Shown here piece by piece: positions 48,224-61,122 of a stretch of DNA of 61,122 bases. A program made the position numbers and the translations under genes. Source of the DNA: Bacteroidaceae bacterium (GTDB taxonomy: Bacteria; Bacteroidota; Bacteroidia; Bacteroidales; Bacteroidaceae); NCBI GenBank assembly GCA_017398805.1, contig JAFQEZ010000011.1, positions 1 through 61,122 on the forward strand, written 5' to 3'. Numbering within the stretch: the first letter of the stretch is position 1; the number at the start of each line of letters is the position of its first letter. The notes beneath the pieces are model-generated. The model did no database searches. It had not been told where the DNA came from and saw only the letters and a program-made list of their open reading frames with translations.

Positions 48224-50974
48224 ATGAAAATAAAAACTTTACTACTATCAGTTATTGCTTTTGCAATGATCATCAACATCAACGCACAAAGCACTATTAC
48301 TCCCGAAAATGCCCAGGGACGCTACGCGGAATTCAAAAGGTACTTTACCGATGGCAGCTGCAGCGAGCTTGCACTGCCCTATTCTGCAATGACCGATGAG
48401 CAACTGCTCGAAGTTCTTGGAGATACGCCAAAGGAACTTGTCGAGATAGCCCTAAAGGTAAAAAACAACAGTTGGGCAAAACGTGAAAAAGAATTCCGCG
48501 TTGCAGATTACAAGCCACACAACAACGTATACAGTTGGGGAAACTCCCTGAAGACATACCAATATTCAGCGCTGCAACACCCTACCGGCATAAGCGCCCG
48601 GAAGGGAGATACATTATTAATATTCATAGACAACGTAAAACCAGGAACATTCCTGAAACTGAATGAAGTAGCAAAAAACGATCCATTTGCCGACTGGGGT
48701 GTAATGAATTCCGAGAAGACACTTGTCAAGGGTCTGAACATGGTTACCGTTGCACAGGATAATGCTATACTTTTCATAAGCTACGCTGTAACAACGGATA
48801 CCACGGATGACAGTCCCAGACTTGCCGACTACCCAACAGCAAGGATACACATTGAAGGCGGTAATGTAAACGGTTACTTCGACAAGAGCAGACACACCGA
48901 TGAAGACTGGCGCGATATGCTTGCCAACCACTTCAAGCACTACAGTGTGCAGGTTAAAGGCGACAGAGTACTCTTTCACATGGAACTTGAAAACATAAGG
49001 AAAGTATGCCCCAACACAATCACCGATGCCATTGGTTGGTGGGACCAGTGCCTTACATGGCAACATGAGCTTATGGGTGTCAACAACTATTACGACCGTT
49101 TCAACAGCCTGCTCATGGCACGCGACGGATACGAAGACATGTACATGTATGCCACAAGTAACTACACCTACTATGAGCACAGCACAATAAAGGACATTCT
49201 GCCATGGGCCACAGTATATGCAAACCCCGGACAGATGTGGGGACCGGCTCATGAAATCGGTCACATAAACCAAGGAGCAATCAACATTGTATCGTGTACC
49301 GAAGCGAGCAACAACTTATTCTCCAATGCCCACCTGTTCCGTGTAGGAAAGACCACCACACGCGGTACAGGCGTAAAAGGATGCAAGGAGGATTTTGAGA
49401 ACAAGGTAGCCTTTCCTTTGAGAGGCGATGTGATTGGCAAGTCGCGCATGTACTACCAGCTGTATCTTTATTTCCATGCAGCAAAAAAAGATACAACATT
49501 CTATCCAAGGCTATTTGAAGTCCTGCGTAGGAATCCACTCGAGAAAGGAGCACAGACAAGCGCTGTCAATGACCAGCTCAAGTTCGCAGAGAAGTGTTGC
49601 GAGATTGCGCAGATGGACCTCAGCGAGTTCTTCGATGCATGGGGATTCTTCGAGCCCATGAACAAAGCCGAAGTGGGTGATTACGGTACATATTTTGTAT
49701 CACTAACAGAGGAGGAGGCCGAGGCAAGCCGCACACGCATGCAGCAATATGAAAAGAAAGGCGGGCATCTAATGTTCATAGAGGACCGCATAAAGCCCTC
49801 TAAGAGGACAGACGGCGTAGACGGTTACCGCCTGGACTTCAGTGAAGAGTACGCTATCGGTACAATGGGAAGCACCGGCCAGTGGGAGGATTATATCGAC
49901 GAGAGCATAAAGGCTCAGGGATACTATTATAAAACAGGTACAAACTATGTAACCATTGTAGCCGAGGAGAATGCAAAGGGCGCAGTCGGCTTCAAGCTCT
50001 ACAATGTCGACAACGGCGAGCTTCTCTCTTTCAACAACGACCATTCATTGAAGATACCGGTTAGCGCACAAGGAGCAAACCTGAGAGTCGTTGCGGCACA
50101 GGCCGACGGTACAGACGTCGAACTGCAGAATGTTGCAGAGAGCGACAACGAGGAGATGCAGATTGAAGCACTGAATGCAGTACTTGCCACAGCAAAGTCT
50201 ATCATGGGCAAACAGACAACGACAGGACGCGAGATTGGATACTATTATACCGATGCGCTTGCCACACTCACTGAGATCTACAACAGCGCCAAGGCGGCTG
50301 CCGACAACCAGGATACAAGCGTGCACTCATACAAGGAGTGGGCAGCTCTGTTGCAGGCCGAAATTAAAAAGATTTCGAACGACCTCAATGCACGCGCATA
50401 CCTCAAGAACCTTGATGCTTACCGCATTATCAATGCCAATGAAAAGGCATACCAACTCTGCTACGACAAGTACGGGCTCAAGGCAAACAAGCAGACCCAG
50501 ACAGCAATCTCTTCGGACGACAAGAAATGGATGTTCGAGAGCACCGGAGAACTGCACCACTACTATATAAAGAACAAGAACGGGCTCTACATAAACGCTT
50601 ATGAAGTTGGCGTAGGTACCTCATGCAGCGGAACAGAGCAGAGCACAGCCAAAGTATTCAAGGCAAACTACACAAACGACGGCAAGATATACTTCAGTTC
50701 AAAGGAAGACGGCACATACCTCACGCTCAACAGCGAATACAACGTTGTTTGCACCACCGAACTTATCGACAACTCAATGTGGACCATAGTACGTGTAGAA
50801 GCGAACAATACAGGCATTGAGGAGGTGAAAGGTGAAAACGGAACCGAAGGTCGACGCCCAGAGGGGCTAAAGTCAAATGTGAAAACTGTTTATGACCTGC
50901 AAGGTAGAAGAATCCAAGAGATTACCAAGCCCGGCATATACATTGTAAACGGTAAAAAAGTGCTGGTTAAGTGA
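48224..50974 (+). CDS. M60 family metallopeptidase, secreted
   Basis: A 916-residue secreted zinc peptidase of the M60/enhancin-like type, associated with mucin degradation by gut Bacteroides. A signal peptide (MKIKTLLLSVIAFAMIININ) precedes an accessory region (about 85-230) and the catalytic core; the gluzincin motif HEIGH is at residues 343-347 and the third ligand Glu360 lies 12 residues later. Residues about 645-735 are helical (FIVAR-like), then a beta-trefoil lectin-like part (about 740-855). Next is a linker (GTEGRRPEGLKSN) resembling an intergenic repeat, then the C-terminal tail YDLQGRRIQ...IVNGKKVLVK. The last codons are part of a 102-base repeat block. Confidence 0.92.
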   Translation: MKIKTLLLSVIAFAMIININAQSTITPENAQGRYAEFKRYFTDGSCSELALPYSAMTDEQLLEVLGDTPKELVEIALKVKNNSWAKREKEFRVADYKPHNNVYSWGNSLKTYQYSALQHPTGISARKGDTLLIFIDNVKPGTFLKLNEVAKNDPFADWGVMNSEKTLVKGLNMVTVAQDNAILFISYAVTTDTTDDSPRLADYPTARIHIEGGNVNGYFDKSRHTDEDWRDMLANHFKHYSVQVKGDRVLFHMELENIRKVCPNTITDAIGWWDQCLTWQHELMGVNNYYDRFNSLLMARDGYEDMYMYATSNYTYYEHSTIKDILPWATVYANPGQMWGPAHEIGHINQGAINIVSCTEASNNLFSNAHLFRVGKTTTRGTGVKGCKEDFENKVAFPLRGDVIGKSRMYYQLYLYFHAAKKDTTFYPRLFEVLRRNPLEKGAQTSAVNDQLKFAEKCCEIAQMDLSEFFDAWGFFEPMNKAEVGDYGTYFVSLTEEEAEASRTRMQQYEKKGGHLMFIEDRIKPSKRTDGVDGYRLDFSEEYAIGTMGSTGQWEDYIDESIKAQGYYYKTGTNYVTIVAEENAKGAVGFKLYNVDNGELLSFNNDHSLKIPVSAQGANLRVVAAQADGTDVELQNVAESDNEEMQIEALNAVLATAKSIMGKQTTTGREIGYYYTDALATLTEIYNSAKAAADNQDTSVHSYKEWAALLQAEIKKISNDLNARAYLKNLDAYRIINANEKAYQLCYDKYGLKANKQTQTAISSDDKKWMFESTGELHHYYIKNKNGLYINAYEVGVGTSCSGTEQSTAKVFKANYTNDGKIYFSSKEDGTYLTLNSEYNVVCTTELIDNSMWTIVRVEANNTGIEEVKGENGTEGRRPEGLKSNVKTVYDLQGRRIQEITKPGIYIVNGKKVLVK
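50821..50880 (+). repeat. Repeat-like linker inside the M60 gene
   Basis: Within the coding sequence, just before the C-terminal tail, AGGTGAAAGGTGAAAACGG (50823-50841) and GGTCGACGCCCAGAGGGGCT (50850-50869, continuing AAAGTCAA) resemble the intergenic modules at 60888-60915 and 60990-61027 (GGTCGACGCCCGAGG ... GAGGGGTTAAAGTCAA). This suggests the linker arose from repeat sequence. Similarity is by eye and has not been scored. Confidence 0.5.
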
Positions 50975-51783: not shown

Positions 51784-51885
51784 TTACTTAACCAATACTT
51801 TCGCTTCGCGCAACTGCTTTGCGCTCGGCAATGCTTGATTAAGCAAGCTTATCAATCATTGCTCTCACTTAACCAGCACTTTTTT
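51784..51885 (-). repeat. 102-base 3'-tail block, inverted copy
   Basis: Reverse-complement partner of 50954-51055, same length. Read on the minus strand it starts AAAAAAGTGCTGGTTAAGTGA, the last codons and stop of the 1258-residue gene (51885-51865), passes through the same imperfect palindrome, and ends with a second tail AAAGTATTGGTTAAGTAA (51801-51784), which still encodes Lys-Val-Leu-Val-Lys-stop despite base changes. Confidence 0.92.
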
Positions 51886-54800
51886 AGTCTCAACAGCGCC
51901 GTTAGCATAAACTGTTACAACGATGTTGATACCCTGTGTTGGAGCCGGGATAGCAGCACCTGCAGGTGTGAAGTAAGCTACAGAAACAACATCGTCACCT
52001 ACTACAACAAGGTCAGAGATTGATGTCTCATAGTCAACCTTTCTCAAGTACCACTGTGAAGCGCCTGCACCACCGTCCCAGTAAACGATGTTACCGTTCT
52101 GGCCGGCACCGCCACCATGCTGGTTAGCGTGGATGCAGAATCCTGCGCCCTTACCTGCAAGACGGAATGTAAATGCAGAACCTGTAGCATTGAGTACCAG
52201 GTAATCAGACCATGCATCTGCGTACAACTCAACAGGTGTTGACTGTGCATCAATTTCACCAATGTAGTAAGGAGTTGCACCCTCATATGTAGCGATGGCA
52301 CGGATATTGTAAACCAAATCTCCCTGGCCTTCTTCTATAGTTCCGCCAGCTTCGAGGTCTGCACCATTTTCAGACTTAGTGAAGTGGAAGTAGAAGTCAA
52401 TGTTGTCCTGCTCGATAGTCTTCCAACCGAATGTAGCAGTACCATCCTCTGTTACATGAGCATAGAGTGCCTTCTCTACATTCTGCTTAGCCTTGAAGTC
52501 TGCATTTGCAGAAACTACCTGATATACACCCTCAGCCATTGGGTTCTTCTCGAGGTTGTTAACAGCAGCAATCTCTTTCGCAAGAGCAGCAGCTGCAGCA
52601 GGAGCGTCAGCATATGCAGAGTCTGCAACTACTCTCTGACCCTCGGCAAGAACAGTCTCAAGGGCACCAAGGTTAGATACACAACCCGGGTCGGTACCAA
52701 CAACAAGACCAAGTTTGTCGAATGCTGCGGTCAAGTTAGTCAACCAGTAGAAGTCTGGGTTAACCATTGTTACCTTGTAGATTTCCCACTCAGTCTCACC
52801 GTTCTCCTTAGCGAAGCACTGAGCATCACCCCAGTTGTCAGCAAGTTCTGCGCTTGTTTCAACAGGCTGTGGGTCTGTTACAGGACGTGTTGCAAGACGG
52901 TTAGCCCAGTCCATGAACATAACGTATGGAGTCTGGTAAATCTTACCTGCTTCATCAACAGTACCATCCTCGTCAGTGTCAATGCTGTCTGCCTGAGTTG
53001 TAAGACCGTCAATCTTCTCGTACATTACGAATGCACCCTCAACGTTTGTTGAAGCAACAATATTAAGGTTAGCAGCCTTCTCTGCCTCATATGTTGTCTT
53101 GTCATCTACATAACCGGTCTCAGTTGTTGAAGGCCAGTACTTAGCCAAGCCAAGGTTGAGAGCCTTGAATGTACCATCGTCGTTCTTAACAAAACGGTAA
53201 ACACCGGGAGCACGTACAGCAGCATCTGCAGCGTGGAAGCGGTCGGTACCATGATAGAACATTGCTGTACCCTCCGGCTCAACAAGCTTAATTGATGTCA
53301 CAGCCTCTTCGCCCTCACCTTCAGTTACCTCCTTGTAAACAGGTACTGTATTGAGCAAGCCCTTGATAACATAGAGACCGTCAGCTGTAATCTGGTCAAC
53401 AGAAGTAACCTTCTCACCTACATATACATTGTATGGGTTCTCTGTGAAGAGAAGTGGGTCGTAACCCTCACCTACAGCTGTAATGGCAACCTTCTTGGGG
53501 AAGAGAGATACCTTACCGTTTGATGTAGTCTTGTCACGGCTGTAAACCTCGAATGAGAATGCATCCATTGCCTCGGGGAATGTGATATCGATGTAGATAT
53601 ACTCCTGTGGCTCATTGCCGCTCCATGGAGAGTGGTAGTAGCCATTAGCAGCGAAGTTGCCGTCGCAAAGACGTGCAACTGTTGACTCGAAGCCCTCCAT
53701 TGTTTCAGTATAGTTTGCCTCGAAGTTCTCTGCAGCCATAGTAACCTCGTTACCATCGGCGTCATAAATCTTGAGCTCACCGATTGCAATCATCGGGAAG
53801 TTACCGGCGTCAGCGGCAGAACCGATGTGACGGTCGAGGAATGTAAGGCGGATACCCTTCGCAGGCTGAGTAAGAACAAGGTTCTTGCTCCATACAGCAT
53901 TGTTAGGCAGGTCGGCATATGGGAAATTGTCGGCAGGGATATCCTCAACAATTGCAGGGAACTCTGTGAATGCAAGTTTTGTACCCTCAATCTGCTCAAG
54001 CAAAGACTCGATTTCAGCATACAAAGCCTCAATCTGAGAATATGAAAGTGAATATGTTCCATCAGCAGAATTATAGCTGTTGATTACCTGATTTGTTTTG
54101 CCAAGGATATCGTCAAGAAGTTTCTGAGTTGCACTTGTGTACATACCGGTCATATCCTGTGTATAAGGAGGTGTAGCCATATTTTCTCCTACCTCTGTAG
54201 AGAGCTCACCATGGAGTTCTTCGTAGTAGTTTGCCAAGATTGCAACATATCCTGCAAGAGCATTCTCAAGGTCGGCCTTAGCTGCGAATGAAGCAGCCAA
54301 ATCACCTGTTGCTACAGCAGCCTGCGCATCAGCAATTGCTTTGTCCAGGGCCTCATCTTCGCCAGCCCAAGCATATTCTTCTACATACTCAAGATACTCT
54401 TCCTTCTTTTCAGCAGCCACCTTGAGGATATTCTCAAGAACCTCGCTACACATCTCTGCAGCAGTCAAGTTAGGAACCATTTCCTTGCTTACGCTTGCAT
54501 TGTAAATTGTGAAACCGAAGTCAACCGGGAGACCGAAGCCCTGTGTGTAGTCTTCCTGCTCAAGGGCATTTTTGTGTTCCTCATCGAATGTCTTAAGGTT
54601 ACCGCGCATGTCGTAACCTACCCAAAGCTTGAGAGGCTCATCATAATCCGTCCATGCACCGTCGGCATACTGGCGTGTAGCATAAGTTGTGATTTCAAAG
54701 TCACCGTCGCCACGCTTTGTAATCTCGAACTCACCAAGACGAGTAGCGTCATCTGTAGCACGCTGCCAACCGTTCTTGCCATTGTAAGCATCGGTCCACT

Positions 54801-55641
54801 TGTCTGCACTGCCATAGTATGTGGCTGATACCGGCTGATAAAGCACGAACTTGCCATTGCTTGCAGGAATGAACTGAACAAGGTTTGTCACAGTCGGCTC
54901 TGCGTAAGAACCTGTTGTGTAACCGCTCAAAGCAATGTATGTGTCACCGTTGCCCTCTGTGTCATTGTATTCTACAGGACCATTAGCGAACAATGTAAAA
55001 GTACCACCGTTAGCAAACTCAGAAGCATCTGTTACCTGCTCGCCTGCCTCGAACTCATACTCGGCAAAGAGCATATCCTCGGTAAAATCAACACCTGGGT
55101 TGGTGAGACCTACAACTGTAGGACGGTTAACATGCTGGTTAGGACGTGTGTACCAAACAAGCTGGAAAGCGTCAACAGGAGCCTCGAAAGTCAACTCAAG
55201 ATAGTGCAAGCCACCAGGCTCTGTACCACCCCAAGAAGAGTGGAAGAAGTTGTTCAGGTTGCCGTCGTTCAAAGCAGGAAGACCTGCACCGTCGGTACCT
55301 GCACCACCGCTATTGTGGTCGGCATTTGATGTAACGGTGTAATTGATTGTGTCACCGGCAGCGTCGAGAACAATCATCTCACCCAAGCAGAAGAACGGAC
55401 CACCACCATATGCCTTATTGGTGTTGTTCGTATTAACAACAGTGTAACGGACACCGGTAGCGCCAGCTTTCTGCAGAAGTGCTGTTTCAGCACGATACTG
55501 AGTCACTTGTGTACCGTTCACGTCGTGAGTAATCTCCTTACCGGGAAGACCTGTAGCCAATGTGCGGCTCCAGTTCTGGGCAGAAACACCTACGACTGCG
55601 AAGAGTGCCAAAGCACCAGCTAGAAATAAATTTTTCTTCAT
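51865..55641 (-). CDS. Large secreted protein with galactose-binding-like domains
   Basis: A 1258-residue secreted protein. A signal peptide (MKKNLFLAGALALFAVVGVSAQ) is followed by two similar discoidin/galactose-binding-like regions (about 55-190 and 595-735; both have a FHSSWGGTEP / YHSPWSGNEPQ loop and FQLVWYTR / FSFEVYSR strands). Helical FIVAR-like stretches lie between (about 395-470 and 500-560), with further beta domains from 750. The end is ETKKVLVK, but the usual YDLQGR tail motif is replaced by SVAYFTPAGAAI. No enzyme motif seen; it probably binds host or dietary glycans. Convergent with one M60 gene and divergent from the other. Promoter at 55742-55772. Confidence 0.75.
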   Translation of the reverse strand: MKKNLFLAGALALFAVVGVSAQNWSRTLATGLPGKEITHDVNGTQVTQYRAETALLQKAGATGVRYTVVNTNNTNKAYGGGPFFCLGEMIVLDAAGDTINYTVTSNADHNSGGAGTDGAGLPALNDGNLNNFFHSSWGGTEPGGLHYLELTFEAPVDAFQLVWYTRPNQHVNRPTVVGLTNPGVDFTEDMLFAEYEFEAGEQVTDASEFANGGTFTLFANGPVEYNDTEGNGDTYIALSGYTTGSYAEPTVTNLVQFIPASNGKFVLYQPVSATYYGSADKWTDAYNGKNGWQRATDDATRLGEFEITKRGDGDFEITTYATRQYADGAWTDYDEPLKLWVGYDMRGNLKTFDEEHKNALEQEDYTQGFGLPVDFGFTIYNASVSKEMVPNLTAAEMCSEVLENILKVAAEKKEEYLEYVEEYAWAGEDEALDKAIADAQAAVATGDLAASFAAKADLENALAGYVAILANYYEELHGELSTEVGENMATPPYTQDMTGMYTSATQKLLDDILGKTNQVINSYNSADGTYSLSYSQIEALYAEIESLLEQIEGTKLAFTEFPAIVEDIPADNFPYADLPNNAVWSKNLVLTQPAKGIRLTFLDRHIGSAADAGNFPMIAIGELKIYDADGNEVTMAAENFEANYTETMEGFESTVARLCDGNFAANGYYHSPWSGNEPQEYIYIDITFPEAMDAFSFEVYSRDKTTSNGKVSLFPKKVAITAVGEGYDPLLFTENPYNVYVGEKVTSVDQITADGLYVIKGLLNTVPVYKEVTEGEGEEAVTSIKLVEPEGTAMFYHGTDRFHAADAAVRAPGVYRFVKNDDGTFKALNLGLAKYWPSTTETGYVDDKTTYEAEKAANLNIVASTNVEGAFVMYEKIDGLTTQADSIDTDEDGTVDEAGKIYQTPYVMFMDWANRLATRPVTDPQPVETSAELADNWGDAQCFAKENGETEWEIYKVTMVNPDFYWLTNLTAAFDKLGLVVGTDPGCVSNLGALETVLAEGQRVVADSAYADAPAAAAALAKEIAAVNNLEKNPMAEGVYQVVSANADFKAKQNVEKALYAHVTEDGTATFGWKTIEQDNIDFYFHFTKSENGADLEAGGTIEEGQGDLVYNIRAIATYEGATPYYIGEIDAQSTPVELYADAWSDYLVLNATGSAFTFRLAGKGAGFCIHANQHGGGAGQNGNIVYWDGGAGASQWYLRKVDYETSISDLVVVGDDVVSVAYFTPAGAAIPAPTQGINIVVTVYANGAVETKKVLVK

Positions 55642-56273: not shown

Positions 56274-59200
56274 ATGAAATTCAAAAAGCTACTTTTGACT
56301 TTGATCGTTGCATTTACTGCACTGCCTTTGGCTGCGCAGTTGCAGGACGGCAAAATCTACCGCTTTGTCAACAAGGCGAACACAAACATCGCCATGGAAG
56401 CGGCATCTACCACCGACATCTACGGTTCGGCAATGGGTGACAGGTATTCACAGTATTGGCTTGCCGAAAAGCATCCAAACAACAGCGAAGCATGGTCTTT
56501 GCGCAGTTTGGGCAATGGCCTCTATGTGGTGCCACGCGGCACAAGTACAGGCTGGACATTCAGCGCTTCAAACAACAGCAGCACAATACTCTACTGCGTG
56601 AACACAAACGGCAACTACTACACTTTCAACTCAAAGAACCATGCCGATGACAGTAACTGCATGCACTATGCCACATCACAAGGCGGCAGAGTCGTAGGCT
56701 GGAACACAGGTGCCGATGCTACACACTGGACCATAGAAGAGATTTCTATCAGCGCAGCCGACCTTGAGGCGAACTGGGCCGAGCTTGACAAGTTCAACAG
56801 TTCACTCAAAGAGGAGAATATTGTAAAGTATGAGGCAGCTCTTGCAAATCTCTTCAACGACAAGGCATGTACACAACTCAAGAAGAACTTTGCGAGCGTT
56901 GATGCATTGAAGGCCGATGCCGACTATCAGGTATTGCCCGAGGCATTACAGGAGATGGCTGTAAAAGTTTACACCGACAACTGGCAGGAGGACAACTTCG
57001 ACAGCAGCAAGCCATACTGGGACAGCGAGCATGCAAAGCGCTTCCGCATACAGAGCATAGAGCCATATAGTATTGCCGGTGAAATCACTGCATGGTTAGG
57101 AATGAATGCCCACATAAACATGGACAACCCATTGGGTATCACAGGTAACTACCGCCAACACGTATTTGTTATGGTTGAAGGCGAAATCAAGGATGGCGCA
57201 GAACTCACACTGGGCACACTCCAGGGGCATGGCTTGCTCGCAACATATGAGAACGGTATACAGTTGAAGGAGGGCTTGAACGTTATTCCTTTCCATGGCA
57301 ACGGTAATACTTTATATATTAATTATGTTGTACACACATACCAGAACGGCAAGTTTGTGAATCCTCTCAGCGGTTACAAAGACATTAAGGTACACGTTGC
57401 CGGCGGTAACGTGAACGGTTACTACAACGGAGTGGGCGACTACCTTTGGGGCGAGCCCGATGATGATGACGACTGGCAGTACTATGAGGACCGCACAAAC
57501 ACCGAGAGTGCGACAATCCTTGGCAAACGTCAGATTCTCCACTTCACAATGTGGCCCACACAGGTTACCGACGACAAAACCGGTAGCACATACATTGAGG
57601 AAAACTGCATGTCAAAGTTCTTCCCCAACAATGTAAATGTTCCAGCCGGCACACCAGCAAAGCAAAAGGTAAACAAGGTTCTTGAGGCATGGGATAGAAT
57701 CCACATGTCGGAACTTGCAACCATGGGTCTCTTGAGCAAGGCTGAGATGGACTCGCTCAACGCTCTTTACCCACGTTGGAACAAGGACTGGAGTGCAAAA
57801 GACGGTAATATCTACGACTACACCGAGGCCATGTACGCAACACGCGGTGGCGTTGACTACAGCGAGCATTTCAACCACCATGGTATTGCACTTGGTAACT
57901 TCAGCGGTTACATGAGTGGCGGTTGGAGAAACTGCAACTACAACCAGAACACAATGGGCGACATTATCGCCAATATCGCTACAAGTGCCGGCCAGGCATG
58001 GGGCCCCGCGCATGAGATTGGACACCAGCACCAAAGCGTGTTTACTGTAAACGGACTTACCGAGGTTACCAACAACTTCCACTCCAACGTGGCTGTATGG
58101 TACATGGGTATGGGTACATCACGCGTAAACGGTTGGTCGGGCAACCTTGAGAATGTTTACAATAACTACAAGAACAACAAGCATTTCCTGTTCCACGCAG
58201 CCGGCGATGGCAGCCAGAACCTATGGAGCCAGACCCAGATGTACTACAGACTATGGCTGTACTATCATCGTGCAGGACACAAAACCGATTTCTACCCCAT
58301 TCTGTTCGAACTTAACCGCCGTGACAGGATGAGCAGCAACAATCTTGGCTGGATTGACGGCAAGGGTCACGCAAGCGGCACCGAGAGCATGCTTAAGTAC
58401 TACAAACAGGCTTGCCAGGCTGCAGGAGAGGACTTGACAGAATTCTTCCGCGCATACGGTTTCTTCGCACTCATGGAGCAACAAGAGCGTGGTGACTACT
58501 CAACAAGTTTCTACACTCAGACACAGAAGGAGGTTGACGATGCAATAGCATGGGTAAAGGCACAGGGATACAAGGAGAACCTTGCTCCGCTTTTCACCAA
58601 CGACTGCGTTGCAACGCCATCATACGGTCATGACGGAAAGACACAGCGTAGCTACTGGGACGGTGAGGCGACAACAAACGGCGAGAACGCAAAACTTGGT
58701 ATGTACACCGACTGTATTGACAAGAACGTCAAGGCCGAGGGTTACCTTTATACAATATATAAGACTACTGTTACTATCATGCATGAGGGTGCAAAAGGCG
58801 CTATAGGTTTCATCATTTACGATGAGAACGACAACCTTGTCGCATTCACAAACAACTACACAGTAGACCTGCCTGCAACAGCAACAAAGGTAAAGATTTA
58901 CGCTGTTCAGGCCGACGGTACTAAGGTTGAGGTGAAATCAGCAGCCGAAGGCGGTACAGAGGAGCAGCAGATCGAAGCTCTTACCAAAGCTATCACTGCC
59001 GCAGAATCTCTCCTTGGCAAGGCCAACAACCCTAAATACGCATCATACCTGCGCGCTTCGGCCGTAGTAGAACTTGCTGAAATGGTCGCCGAGGCACAGG
59101 CGGCTCTTGACAACAAAGACCAGAGCCAATACACATACGGAGCCTGGGCAATGGCACTTACAAACCTTACAAACGAGACAAAGTCCAATCCTAACGCTTT

Positions 59201-60449
59201 CATCGGTGTCAAGGCACTCAACCACTACGAACTTCGTTGTGCCGAGGGCAACTTCGGTCGATACCTTGCATACTACGACAACGGTGTAAAGGCTGCAACC
59301 CAGAGCCAGGTGGCCAAAGCAAATGATGACCGCCGCTGGGAGTTTGTTCCCGTTGAGGGCGAGGAGGGTGTATACTACATCAGGAACGTAGGACAGAACA
59401 AGTTTATTCTTGAGGTAGGCAACGGCTCAAATGCATTGCTTGGTACAAGTCTTGCTGCCGGTTCACAGAAGTTTACCATATTCTACAACGGTGACGGTAC
59501 TGCAAGCATTCTAAAGGCAGGTGAACCTAATGTTTCGCTCTACCGCGACTCCGACTACTCTATCGTGGGCAAGGAGCCGGGCGAAAAGAGTTCACAGTGG
59601 CGTATAGAACTCTATACAGATAATGCAACCGCTGTTGAAATTGCCGAACTCGAGGCTCTTGTAACAGAGGCGGAAAGAGTGATTGCCGAGGCTGGCAACG
59701 GTATCGACAACCTTGCAGTATATGTGAGCGACATCGAGCTCGCAGACTTTGTGAGAAGAGTTACAGAGGCCAAGGAGAATGCCGAAGCAGCATTGGCCGA
59801 CCAGGATAACGTCGAGGACTTTGTAACATATATAAAGGACCTTGAGACAGCCATTGCAAACACCGAGGCTGTATACGTACTCAAGCCACAGTCAAGCCAT
59901 GAGGAAACAATTTACTACTATTACCTCAAGGATGTCGACGCAGGTACATACGCATTTGTCAACCCGGATGCTACAGGTAGATATGTTGATGCAATGGGTA
60001 CCGCTGAACTTGACACAGAGAATGACAACTATGTTTGGGCATTCGTAAAGAACAGTAAGGGCGAGTTGCAGATATACAACAAGGGTTACGATGCTTACCT
60101 CTACACATTGAGCAGCAGCCCGAACCCACTCAAGGCCGACAAGGCTGAAGATGCAGGCAACTATGTATTCAGCGTTGATAATGACAAGAAGGCTCTCGTA
60201 ATCACAGAAGGCGCAAAGTACCTCTACAACCAGAGCGGTAAAGCCCGCATCTACAGCAGCAATAAGAGCTACTGGAAGCTTGAGCTTATCGGCACAGAGG
60301 AGGGCGCACTCACAAGCATCGTTGAGATTGAGACTGAGGCTACAGATCCTGTCCTCGAGGGCATCTTCGACCTCACCGGCCGCAAGATTGAGGAGATTAC
60401 AGCTCCGGGTATCTACATTATCAATGGCAAAAAGGTACTTGTAAAGTAA
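56274..60449 (+). CDS. Large M60 family metallopeptidase, secreted
   Basis: A 1391-residue secreted zinc peptidase of the M60 family. Signal peptide MKFKKLLLTLIVAFTALPLA is followed by a ricin-type beta-trefoil-like domain (about 22-160: GKIYRFVNKANTNIAMEA, then YSQYWLAEKHPN), the M60 N-terminal sandwich (about 260-420) and the catalytic core with HEIGH at residues 580-584 and third ligand Glu597. Later are helical FIVAR-like stretches (about 900-965 and 1120-1200), two further lectin-like parts (about 980-1110 and 1210-1345), and the tail IFDLTGRKIEEI...IINGKKVLVK. Probable target is O-glycosylated host mucin. Tail codons are the start of a tandem repeat. Confidence 0.92.
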   Translation: MKFKKLLLTLIVAFTALPLAAQLQDGKIYRFVNKANTNIAMEAASTTDIYGSAMGDRYSQYWLAEKHPNNSEAWSLRSLGNGLYVVPRGTSTGWTFSASNNSSTILYCVNTNGNYYTFNSKNHADDSNCMHYATSQGGRVVGWNTGADATHWTIEEISISAADLEANWAELDKFNSSLKEENIVKYEAALANLFNDKACTQLKKNFASVDALKADADYQVLPEALQEMAVKVYTDNWQEDNFDSSKPYWDSEHAKRFRIQSIEPYSIAGEITAWLGMNAHINMDNPLGITGNYRQHVFVMVEGEIKDGAELTLGTLQGHGLLATYENGIQLKEGLNVIPFHGNGNTLYINYVVHTYQNGKFVNPLSGYKDIKVHVAGGNVNGYYNGVGDYLWGEPDDDDDWQYYEDRTNTESATILGKRQILHFTMWPTQVTDDKTGSTYIEENCMSKFFPNNVNVPAGTPAKQKVNKVLEAWDRIHMSELATMGLLSKAEMDSLNALYPRWNKDWSAKDGNIYDYTEAMYATRGGVDYSEHFNHHGIALGNFSGYMSGGWRNCNYNQNTMGDIIANIATSAGQAWGPAHEIGHQHQSVFTVNGLTEVTNNFHSNVAVWYMGMGTSRVNGWSGNLENVYNNYKNNKHFLFHAAGDGSQNLWSQTQMYYRLWLYYHRAGHKTDFYPILFELNRRDRMSSNNLGWIDGKGHASGTESMLKYYKQACQAAGEDLTEFFRAYGFFALMEQQERGDYSTSFYTQTQKEVDDAIAWVKAQGYKENLAPLFTNDCVATPSYGHDGKTQRSYWDGEATTNGENAKLGMYTDCIDKNVKAEGYLYTIYKTTVTIMHEGAKGAIGFIIYDENDNLVAFTNNYTVDLPATATKVKIYAVQADGTKVEVKSAAEGGTEEQQIEALTKAITAAESLLGKANNPKYASYLRASAVVELAEMVAEAQAALDNKDQSQYTYGAWAMALTNLTNETKSNPNAFIGVKALNHYELRCAEGNFGRYLAYYDNGVKAATQSQVAKANDDRRWEFVPVEGEEGVYYIRNVGQNKFILEVGNGSNALLGTSLAAGSQKFTIFYNGDGTASILKAGEPNVSLYRDSDYSIVGKEPGEKSSQWRIELYTDNATAVEIAELEALVTEAERVIAEAGNGIDNLAVYVSDIELADFVRRVTEAKENAEAALADQDNVEDFVTYIKDLETAIANTEAVYVLKPQSSHEETIYYYYLKDVDAGTYAFVNPDATGRYVDAMGTAELDTENDNYVWAFVKNSKGELQIYNKGYDAYLYTLSSSPNPLKADKAEDAGNYVFSVDNDKKALVITEGAKYLYNQSGKARIYSSNKSYWKLELIGTEEGALTSIVEIETEATDPVLEGIFDLTGRKIEEITAPGIYIINGKKVLVK

Positions 60450-60860
60450 CTTTTTGCTATCGGCGAGCCTTTTAGCAATTAGTCACGCGAAGCACCGCGA
60501 CAGTGGTGCCGCGTGGGTTGCTGAAAAAAAAGGCGAGCCAATGGCAAGATAATAACGAAAAGGGAATTGCAACGCAGTTCCCTTTTCTCATATATAAAAA
60601 GGTACTTGTAAAGTAACTTTTTGCTATCGGCGAGCCTTTTAGCGATTGGTCGCAGGCTGCGTGGCGAAGTCACGCCCTGCGGGTTGCGAAAAGAAAGGCG
60701 AGCCAATGGCAAGGAAATAACAGAAAAGGGAATTGCAACGCAGTTCCCTTTTCTCATATATAAAAAGGTACTTGTAAAGTAACTTTTTGCTATCGGCGAG
60801 CCTTTTAGCGATTGGTCACGCGAAGCACGGAATGGTCGCGTCGCGTGGGTTAAACGTAGG
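60429..60860. repeat. Tandem 166-167-base repeat with tail copies
   Basis: Three copies start at 60429, 60596 and 60762, each beginning AAAAAGGTACTTGTAAAGTA (Lys-Val-Leu-Val-Lys and stop; only the first is in the gene). Units 1 and 2 are complete. Each has (a) a long imperfect hairpin with outer arms GGCGAGCCTTTT / AAAAGGCGAGCC and an inner stem that differs between copies yet still pairs (ACGCG/CGCGT; GCAGG/CCTGC), and (b) a 14-base-pair hairpin GAAAAGGGAATTGC/GCAGTTCCCTTTTC (60557-60587, 60723-60753). The third copy is cut after the inner stem near 60850. Confidence 0.9.
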
Positions 60861-61122
60861 GGCAGACCGATGTGTCTGCCCTAAAAGTTGAAAGTTGAAA
60901 GATGAAAGTGGAAAGTTAATTGAGATTTTTCGCTTTGCTCAAAATGACAGCCTCGCGGTATTTGGTGTGCTGGAGCGCAGCGAACCAACGGTCGACGCCC
61001 GAGGCGTTAGCCGAGGGGTTAAAGTCAAGGATCTCTTTCCTTTGGCGCTTTTTAAAGGGCTATAAGGGCTAACTTCTTGTACCCCTCACCGCTGCGCGGA
61101 GCTCCCCTAAAACAGGGGAGCA
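60861..61122. repeat. Intergenic repeat mosaic 4 (window edge)
   Basis: Modules in mostly inverted orientation relative to the earlier mosaics: GTAGGGGCAGACCGATGTGT with CTGCCC (60866-60891), AAAGTTGAAAGTTGAAAGAT (60892), GAGATTTTTCGCTTTGCTCA with AAATGACAGCCTCGCGG (60922-60958), GGTCGACGCCCGAGGCGTTA (60992), AAAGGGCTATAAGGGCTAAC (61054), CCCCTCACCGCTGCGCGGAG with CTCCCCTAAAACAGGGGAGC (61081-61121). The sequence ends within the last module; no gene is visible. Confidence 0.85.

Follow-up and report, generated by a model that had tools for sequence, protein, structure and literature searches.

REPINs are bacterial hairpins whose arms show compensatory changes and which form tandem clusters that take in their flanks, according to the available parts of PMC3116915. 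The family described here resembles the REPIN/REP and RAYT system in its high-copy intergenic hairpins, compensatory arm changes and flank-including tandem clusters, but it differs in build. In the available portions of PMC3116915 and PMC3733652, REPINs are paired REPs of 20-40 bp, whereas here a single asymmetric hairpin of about 80 nt is dispersed. CGTC-tagged REPs, which include Rickettsia RPE-4 and RPE-6 and are reported from Bacteroidetes among other phyla, are likewise dispersed and have no associated transposase; the 8-9 bp stem, 4-5 nt loop, CGTC end and CCA tail given for them in the accessible text of PMC3733652 were not found in the present family. ICEs occupy the 3' ends of guaA and tRNA genes, where flanking direct repeats measure 12-54 bp, and in guaA these repeats contain just the 3' end of the gene (PMC4701971, in the sections available). 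The present family shares with ICEs and IMEs the duplication of a gene 3' end as a direct repeat, an intact gene, and guaA and tRNA sites. Unlike in those elements, the units are too small for an integrase or cargo, one hairpin family occurs at many genes, and tail alleles are stacked in tandem.

No description of gene-tail-duplicating hairpins was found in the literature searched, which left out subscription journals and preprints. Diversity-generating retroelements are marked by a copy of a gene 3' end beside a hairpin, adenine-directed differences and a reverse transcriptase, and the hallmarks of integron attC sites are R'/R'' core sites and IntI. We interpret the present family as a genus-level, non-autonomous, REPIN-like DNA hairpin, often located just behind genes, whose duplicated gene tails would serve as homology arms through which 3' ends are stacked or swapped. 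We assign this interpretation a probability of about 0.5.

The window is the whole stretch of DNA analyzed, 61,122 nt long, and its source genome (G000) is 87% complete. Near the end of the window, an M60-type peptidase gene runs into a tandem array of period 166 that begins at 60429 (TRF 60429-60828, 2.4 copies). The features of this region are as follows.

56274..60449, + strand: M60-type peptidase gene (ORF of 1391 aa), whose 3' end opens the array
56274..60449, + strand: Pfam domains of the M60 gene, Peptidase_M60 (2.9e-13), Peptidase_M60_C and RicinB_lectin_2
60429..60449, + strand: gene tail of unit 1, KKVLVK and stop, with exact repeats at 60596 and 60762
60450..60460, + strand: X' of unit 1 (CTTTTTGCTAT), an inverted tail copy, from the fold
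60461..60539, + strand: family hairpin, copy 1 (covariance model R1, 60460-60541, E 1.0e-25)
60540..60555, + strand: degenerate tail copy joined straight onto the hairpin 3' edge (AATGGCAAGATAATAA against AATGGCAAAAAGGTACTTGTAAAGTAA in the gene), from the sequence
60557..60587, + strand: 14-bp terminator-like hairpin (fold z -5.4), not constant in the dispersed family
60596..60616, + strand: tail copy of unit 2, KKVLVK and stop, an exact repeat
60627..60704, + strand: family hairpin, copy 2 (covariance model R1, 60627-60707, E 5.4e-24)
60762..60782, + strand: tail copy of unit 3, KKVLVK and stop, an exact repeat
60793..60855, + strand: family hairpin, copy 3, truncated and with its second stem broken (covariance model R1, 60793-60871, 46.1 bits; fold z -0.8)

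The original prediction of three copies of 166-167 bases held for two complete units (167 and 166 bases) but not for the third, which ends after about 90 bases. Its proposal that each unit opens with the last codons and stop of the gene was correct: AAAAAGGTACTTGTAAAGTAA, the KKVLVK-stop end of the M60 gene, is repeated exactly at 60429, 60596 and 60762. X' of unit 1 pairs with AATGGCAA directly after the hairpin, and the identical X' of unit 2 pairs over 10 positions. The predicted compensatory change in the inner stem was also seen, from ACGCG/CGCGT in unit 1 to GCAGG/CCTGC in unit 2. The neighboring second stem likewise changed on both arms (GCACC/GGTGC versus GCGTG/CACGC), and alignment A2, described below, shows both inner stems of hairpin copy 2 altered on both arms. 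Units 1 and 2 folded far better than shuffled sequences (z -7.4 and -5.0; 0/200 shuffles as good for each), while unit 3 did not (z -0.8; 35/200 as good). Unit 3 carries no 14-bp hairpin and passes after its 90 or so bases into another dispersed repeat. Further dispersed repeats (GTAGGGGCAGACCGATGTGTCTGCCC, AAAGTTGAAAGATGAAAG and GAGATTTTTCGCTTTGCTCAAAATGACA) lie 3' of unit 3, in window positions 60856-61122, and recur beside many hairpins of G000. Upstream of the array gene are a second M60 peptidase gene (window 48224-50974, Pfam 1.5e-25) and an ORF of 1258 aa with no Pfam match (window 51865-55641). An NCBIfam search of the M60 protein found nothing.

The hairpin of the array belongs to a large family. 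A blastn search with unit 1 found 25 places in the same genome, and a covariance model built from 21 copies matched at least 97 places in G000 at E <= 0.01, with 150 of the 550 candidates scored. The REP-like covarying element that had been proposed thus has many further copies, both in G000 and in every sampled congener. The hairpin spans about 80 nt and consists of two stacked, covarying stems (6 and 5 pairs scored), invariant GTC and GGG, and long outer arms. To alignment A2 belong all 23 blastn places that cover the core, chosen by sequence similarity alone and with no pairing rule; the remaining two places, C99 and C59, are without the core. Of the cells in A2, 96.5% pair, and 11 of the 15 pairs show two-sided change. 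Two-sided cells numbered 50, compared with 12.9 in shuffles (0/500); the number of pair types, 18, was not above shuffles (133/500). Invariant columns are G23 T24 C25, G30, G33, G38, T45, C51 and G56-G58. Beyond the core, left flanks tend to pair with right flanks locus by locus (mean of 4.05 pairs versus 2.54, 0/2000 permutations, for 66 non-redundant flanks of 141).

Two structural variants were seen. In one subfamily (window 60461-60539 and L010:2757-2838), both outer arms read GGCGAGCC, which gives a stem with tandem G-A/A-G mismatches. As direct repeats, these arms could permit excision that leaves behind the GGCGAGCC pieces read in murF of genomes G030 and G004. At 18 of the covariance-model places in G000 the copy measures 130 nt (e.g., L105:1561-1690, L106:1558-1687 and L119:1573-1702), and those inspected contain a second dispersed repeat (CACTCCCACCCCTCCGCC...GAGGAG...TTTA) at a constant place in the apical loop.

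Neither the KVLVK tail nor the 14-bp hairpin is a family-wide feature; both are local. KVLVK-tailed genes, four in number, account for 10 of the 97 copies in G000, and of 18 tail-motif sites, 8 have a family match directly after them and 10 do not. The check that had been suggested returned covarying copies, most of them away from KKVLVK-tailed genes, which goes halfway toward refuting the original proposal. Tails of this type would be part of type IX secretion domains. The 14-bp hairpin of unit 1, which folds better than shuffles (z -5.4), looks like a gene terminator. It had been described as fixed in all units, a description that fails: it is missing in unit 3 and in the C16 array, where no second hairpin was found, and is variable in the C32 array, where one unit has a different second hairpin and another a nearly identical one. 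At each tail-copy site, the copied tail is that of the adjoining gene (galE, gdhA, murF, mltG and others). The idea that the element carries and spreads a C-terminal tail accordingly holds in so far as hairpins and copied C-terminal codons are linked, but it does not extend to the spread of any single tail.

Hairpins tend to lie behind genes and to point in the direction of transcription. Among the clusters of G000, a gene 3' end was present on the 5' side of the hairpin only in 27, on the 3' side only in 8, on both sides in 6 and on neither in 13 (p 0.0019, with 19 of 73 clusters near contig edges dropped). For all 163 unique contexts the corresponding counts were 67, 11, 10 and 75, where "neither" means no gene end (ORF of at least 100 codons) within 160 nt on either side. 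The 75 contexts without a nearby gene end count against the reading that we favor. Genes for tRNA-Pro and tRNA-Leu also adjoin hairpins (L384:5914-5990, L386:147-223; L131, L137, L277), and at tRNA-Pro in G014 a hairpin interrupts displaced tRNA fragments while the intact tRNA persists.

The family is largely confined to one genus. All 37 sampled same-genus genomes, G000 included, had matches, with 1 to 75 scored copies each when 75 candidates were scored per genome; in the same survey, 0 of 24 genomes of other families had any. An order-wide draw of 295 genomes, with 15 candidates scored per genome, returned matches only in G000 and in G182, a member of another family (1/294 apart from G000). 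G182 carries two tandem copies behind a GMP synthase-like gene (guaA, a name assigned from reading the gene's sequence) that ends in PSATIEWE, and the same gene end precedes an array in G000. Hairpins recur at the 3' end of guaA, as seen at L422 (G182, C52), L023 (G000, C67), L153, L306, L310 and L364. The guaA tail codons begin with AATGGGA, and this sequence is located at the hairpin edge or close to it in G182 and in four of the five other loci (not L153). In the GTDB collection, an exact core pattern matched 64 stretches, of which 60 bear the title Bacteroidaceae bacterium RGIG and 4 are from Bacteroidales MAGs; the RGIG isolate names point to ruminant gut samples. The pattern had no match in viral contigs and unit 1 had no blastn match in phages or plasmids, and carriage by phages or plasmids was rejected on these grounds.

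These data bear on the possibility that the hairpin is a structured 3'UTR RNA, acting as terminator or stabilizer under RNA-level selection and duplicated passively with gene ends. Its strong folds, compensatory changes and orientation with the gene are what such an RNA should show, and terminator-like palindromes often adjoin the hairpins. The inner helix points the other way. In 130 distinct cores from the 150 model matches, aligned by fitting to the covariance model, 1,270 of 1,323 cells were Watson-Crick, 23 G-T, 10 A-C and 20 other; G-T pairs are thus few, and A-C not much rarer. DNA, whether single-stranded or cruciform, accounts for these counts no less well than RNA, and three copies folded as DNA lay far below shuffles. 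Taken together, the few G-T cells and the DNA folds indicate that compensatory change in the family is evidence of structure, not of RNA. The structured-RNA element originally predicted is therefore upheld as to structure, while compensation does not establish RNA. Copies also lie inside displaced tRNA pieces and repeat-rich intergenic DNA, and a range of 1 to 75 scored copies among congeners is odd for a regulator. No match to Rfam 15 at gathering score was found in the six loci searched, and window 60300-61122 gave one match of 23.1 bits, below the cutoff of 48; a known RNA family was rejected on this basis. We consider a 3'UTR RNA improbable.

The 3' edge of the hairpin is precise. In 151 of 177 copies with a recognizable edge (201 scanned), the hairpin ends in G[TC]C, with AA directly beyond the edge, exactly 21 nt after GGG. 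A direct repeat anchored at this edge and matching the left flank (score of at least 10) was found in 75 of 169 copies, compared with 46 of 842 swapped flanks. When the right flank was shifted by 30 nt, 39 of the 169 copies still reached the anchored score; this counts against the favored reading and arises from long repeats and dispersed flanks that continue past the shift. At the protein level, the final codons and stop of the gene were found again behind the hairpin in 21 of 77 gene contexts, compared with 6 of 1,125 mismatched controls (controls sharing the same last residues were skipped); the 56 contexts with no tail copy at the amino-acid level also count against that reading. The layout at many sites is tail, hairpin and tail copy, or a longer tandem array. 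Tail copies in G000 comprise 26 codons for galE, 12 for gdhA, 8 for murF, 16 for mltG and 34 for a gene ending in GKKTFIK. Overall, the shortest measure about 10 nt and the longest at least 113 nt, and many are short for RecA exchange, a further point against the favored reading.

Differences between tail and copy fell mainly in third codon positions: 15, 3 and 45 at positions 1, 2 and 3, over 228, 232 and 231 sites in 21 contexts. These contexts share genes (gdhA, murF and KVLVK genes) and so are not fully independent; the alignments were made on DNA alone, and the score was attained by 6 of 77 mismatched pairs as well. An amino-acid-anchored count of synonymous change (47 to 9 codons) is biased by its scoring, and the DNA-only count was used instead. 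Simple decay of the copy should have produced many more second-position changes, and duplication followed by decay is disfavored by the third-position excess. Most simply, one of the two tails would have evolved as coding sequence in another lineage. The excess of third-position changes also differs from the pattern of diversity-generating retroelements, and RVT_1 was unmatched in 24 of the 41 genus genomes.

Comparison of loci across species showed how the tails are arranged. Four genes selected because G000 showed a tail copy (murF, gdhA, galE and mltG; names from NCBIfam, with the MurF score below the curated cutoff) were followed in 30 loci each. Full cores at most 420 nt from the stop were present at 3/30 murF, 5/30 gdhA, 1/30 galE and 2/30 mltG loci, and in all 11 of these full-core loci a tail copy was found by reading. 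At galE, G000 alone among the 30 loci has the hairpin. The galE copy behind the hairpin retains the terminator of G004, G020 and G031 (scores of 54.0, 49.5 and 42.5), while the gene-proximal UTR and terminator of G000 have no good match in the sampled relatives (best, 10.5). At murF, two tail alleles, one gene-proximal and the other second, change places between G000 and G004. Over its last 45 nt, murF of G000 is 93.3% identical to that of G030, G005 and G031, and over the next 105 nt the identity is 79-84%; the end of murF is conserved anyway (77.8-88.9% in 12 other genomes compared), so the 93.3% identity adds little. At gdhA, G000 carries the tail ending in ATCGTCTGA next to the gene, and G004 has it in second position. 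The gene-proximal gdhA tail of G004 matches its sister G020 (97.8% over 45 nt), with the other allele in the tails farther downstream. Since tail alleles stand in different orders in different species, simple duplication and decay is insufficient. Which copy is the newcomer varies between loci, and this counts against the favored reading.

The two genomes G010 and G014, which are 93.2% identical (median of long matches, in the stretches compared), differ in their arrays. At one site, G010 has a single hairpin and G014 has three full ones. At gdhA, G014 has one more tail-UTR-hairpin than G010, where a hairpin remnant was read. At tRNA-Pro, G014 has two hairpins and G010 none, yet G010 also has the copied tRNA fragment, so that gain and loss are indistinguishable at this site, another point against the favored reading. 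Arrays therefore grow and shrink, with gain and loss not always separable. Pair E (poor alignment) and pair D (other insertions) were left out of the locus comparisons.

Rapid change in copy number, as in the three full hairpins of G014 and the one of G010 at the same site, is also what would be expected of a MITE/REPIN-type element moved by a transposase. Tail copies would then be by-products of unequal crossing-over or slippage, and later recombination between species would make the mosaics. Hairpins with compensatory changes and flank-including tandem clusters have precedent in the available parts of PMC3116915. Joining at one fixed edge, starting at an AA in the gene, is however more specific than random unequal exchange would produce, and most genus genomes gave no match to the transposase sought. 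A Y1 transposase (PF01797) was found in 5 of 41 genus genomes; among genomes with copies scored, G030 (74) and G004 (75) have one. No match was found in the other 36, including G000, G031 (67 copies) and G020 (72), although the incompleteness of the genomes weakens this absence, and a RAYT/IS200 origin was rejected only weakly for the same reason. The family may differ from REPINs in this respect. It does differ from them in GTAG, which is absent from the invariant columns and is not conserved at either end of the hairpin in A2, and in a 3' edge that is fused to copies of gene tails and accompanied by mosaics between species. We regard a transposase-moved element as possible but rather unlikely. 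Reverse transcriptase (RVT_1) was found in 17 of 41 genus genomes and did not track copy number: it is present in G000, G004 and G033 and was not found in the other 24, including G030, G031 and G020 (many genomes are incomplete). An origin by reverse transcription (DGR, retron or group II) was rejected because RVT_1 is patchy among genomes with 67-75 scored copies. That neither Y1 transposases nor reverse transcriptases yielded an enzyme that follows the family counts against the reading that we favor as well.

The sites themselves recall integrase-type elements. The direct repeat of the target gene's 3' end that characterizes such elements is present in the 21 of 77 contexts described above, galE, gdhA, murF and mltG among them, and guaA, tRNA-Leu and tRNA-Pro are among the hairpin sites. 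Hairpins might thus be att relics or miniature derivatives, and the arrays scars, of ICEs or IMEs that enter gene and tRNA 3' ends by recombination and restore the tail, for which guaA and tRNA 3' ends with direct repeats of 12-54 bp offer a parallel in the available sections of PMC4701971. But a site-specific integrase has one target, and here a single hairpin family occurs at many unrelated genes; moreover, repeat units of about 90-220 bp are too short for an integrase. Such scars are improbable as an explanation.

The stacking of tails could also reflect a new class of miniature mobile element. Its unit would combine the hairpin with the end of a host gene, comprising the last codons, the stop and the UTR or terminator; it would home into the same gene in other species, join its hairpin edge to the resident coding tail, become the end of that gene, and push older tails downstream as a record of earlier alleles. 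We consider this proposal unlikely, and slightly more so in view of the murF tail, whose identity only modestly exceeds that of other genomes. A stricter rule, that the newcomer is always gene-proximal, was dropped, as gdhA of G004 contradicts it.

According to the reading that we favor, of a non-autonomous DNA hairpin with homology arms, the hairpin, in cruciform or single-stranded form, would cause its own 3' edge to be joined to the adjacent upstream gene at an AA[AT]G site, and the tail and UTR would be duplicated. These steps, up to the first join, are our inference. The duplicated tails would then be portable homology arms on both sides of the hairpin, by which tail-UTR-hairpin pieces could enter the corresponding gene of a related species through recombination of the Campbell-like or unequal kind. 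The outcome would be 3' ends and terminators that are stacked or swapped while the protein remains intact.

Dispersed bacterial hairpins are usually seen as intergenic decoration. Here, the hairpin edge is a fixed breakpoint beside duplicated and exchanged gene 3' ends and terminators, and exchange of 3' ends between species leaves the protein nearly the same. Earlier recombination at individual genes stays recorded in the stacked tails. Turnover of 3' UTRs and terminators, and the spread of a hairpin without a known transposase, become directly testable in one genus, in which the hairpins are markers, and perhaps contributing causes, of gene-end duplication and of the exchange of such ends between species.
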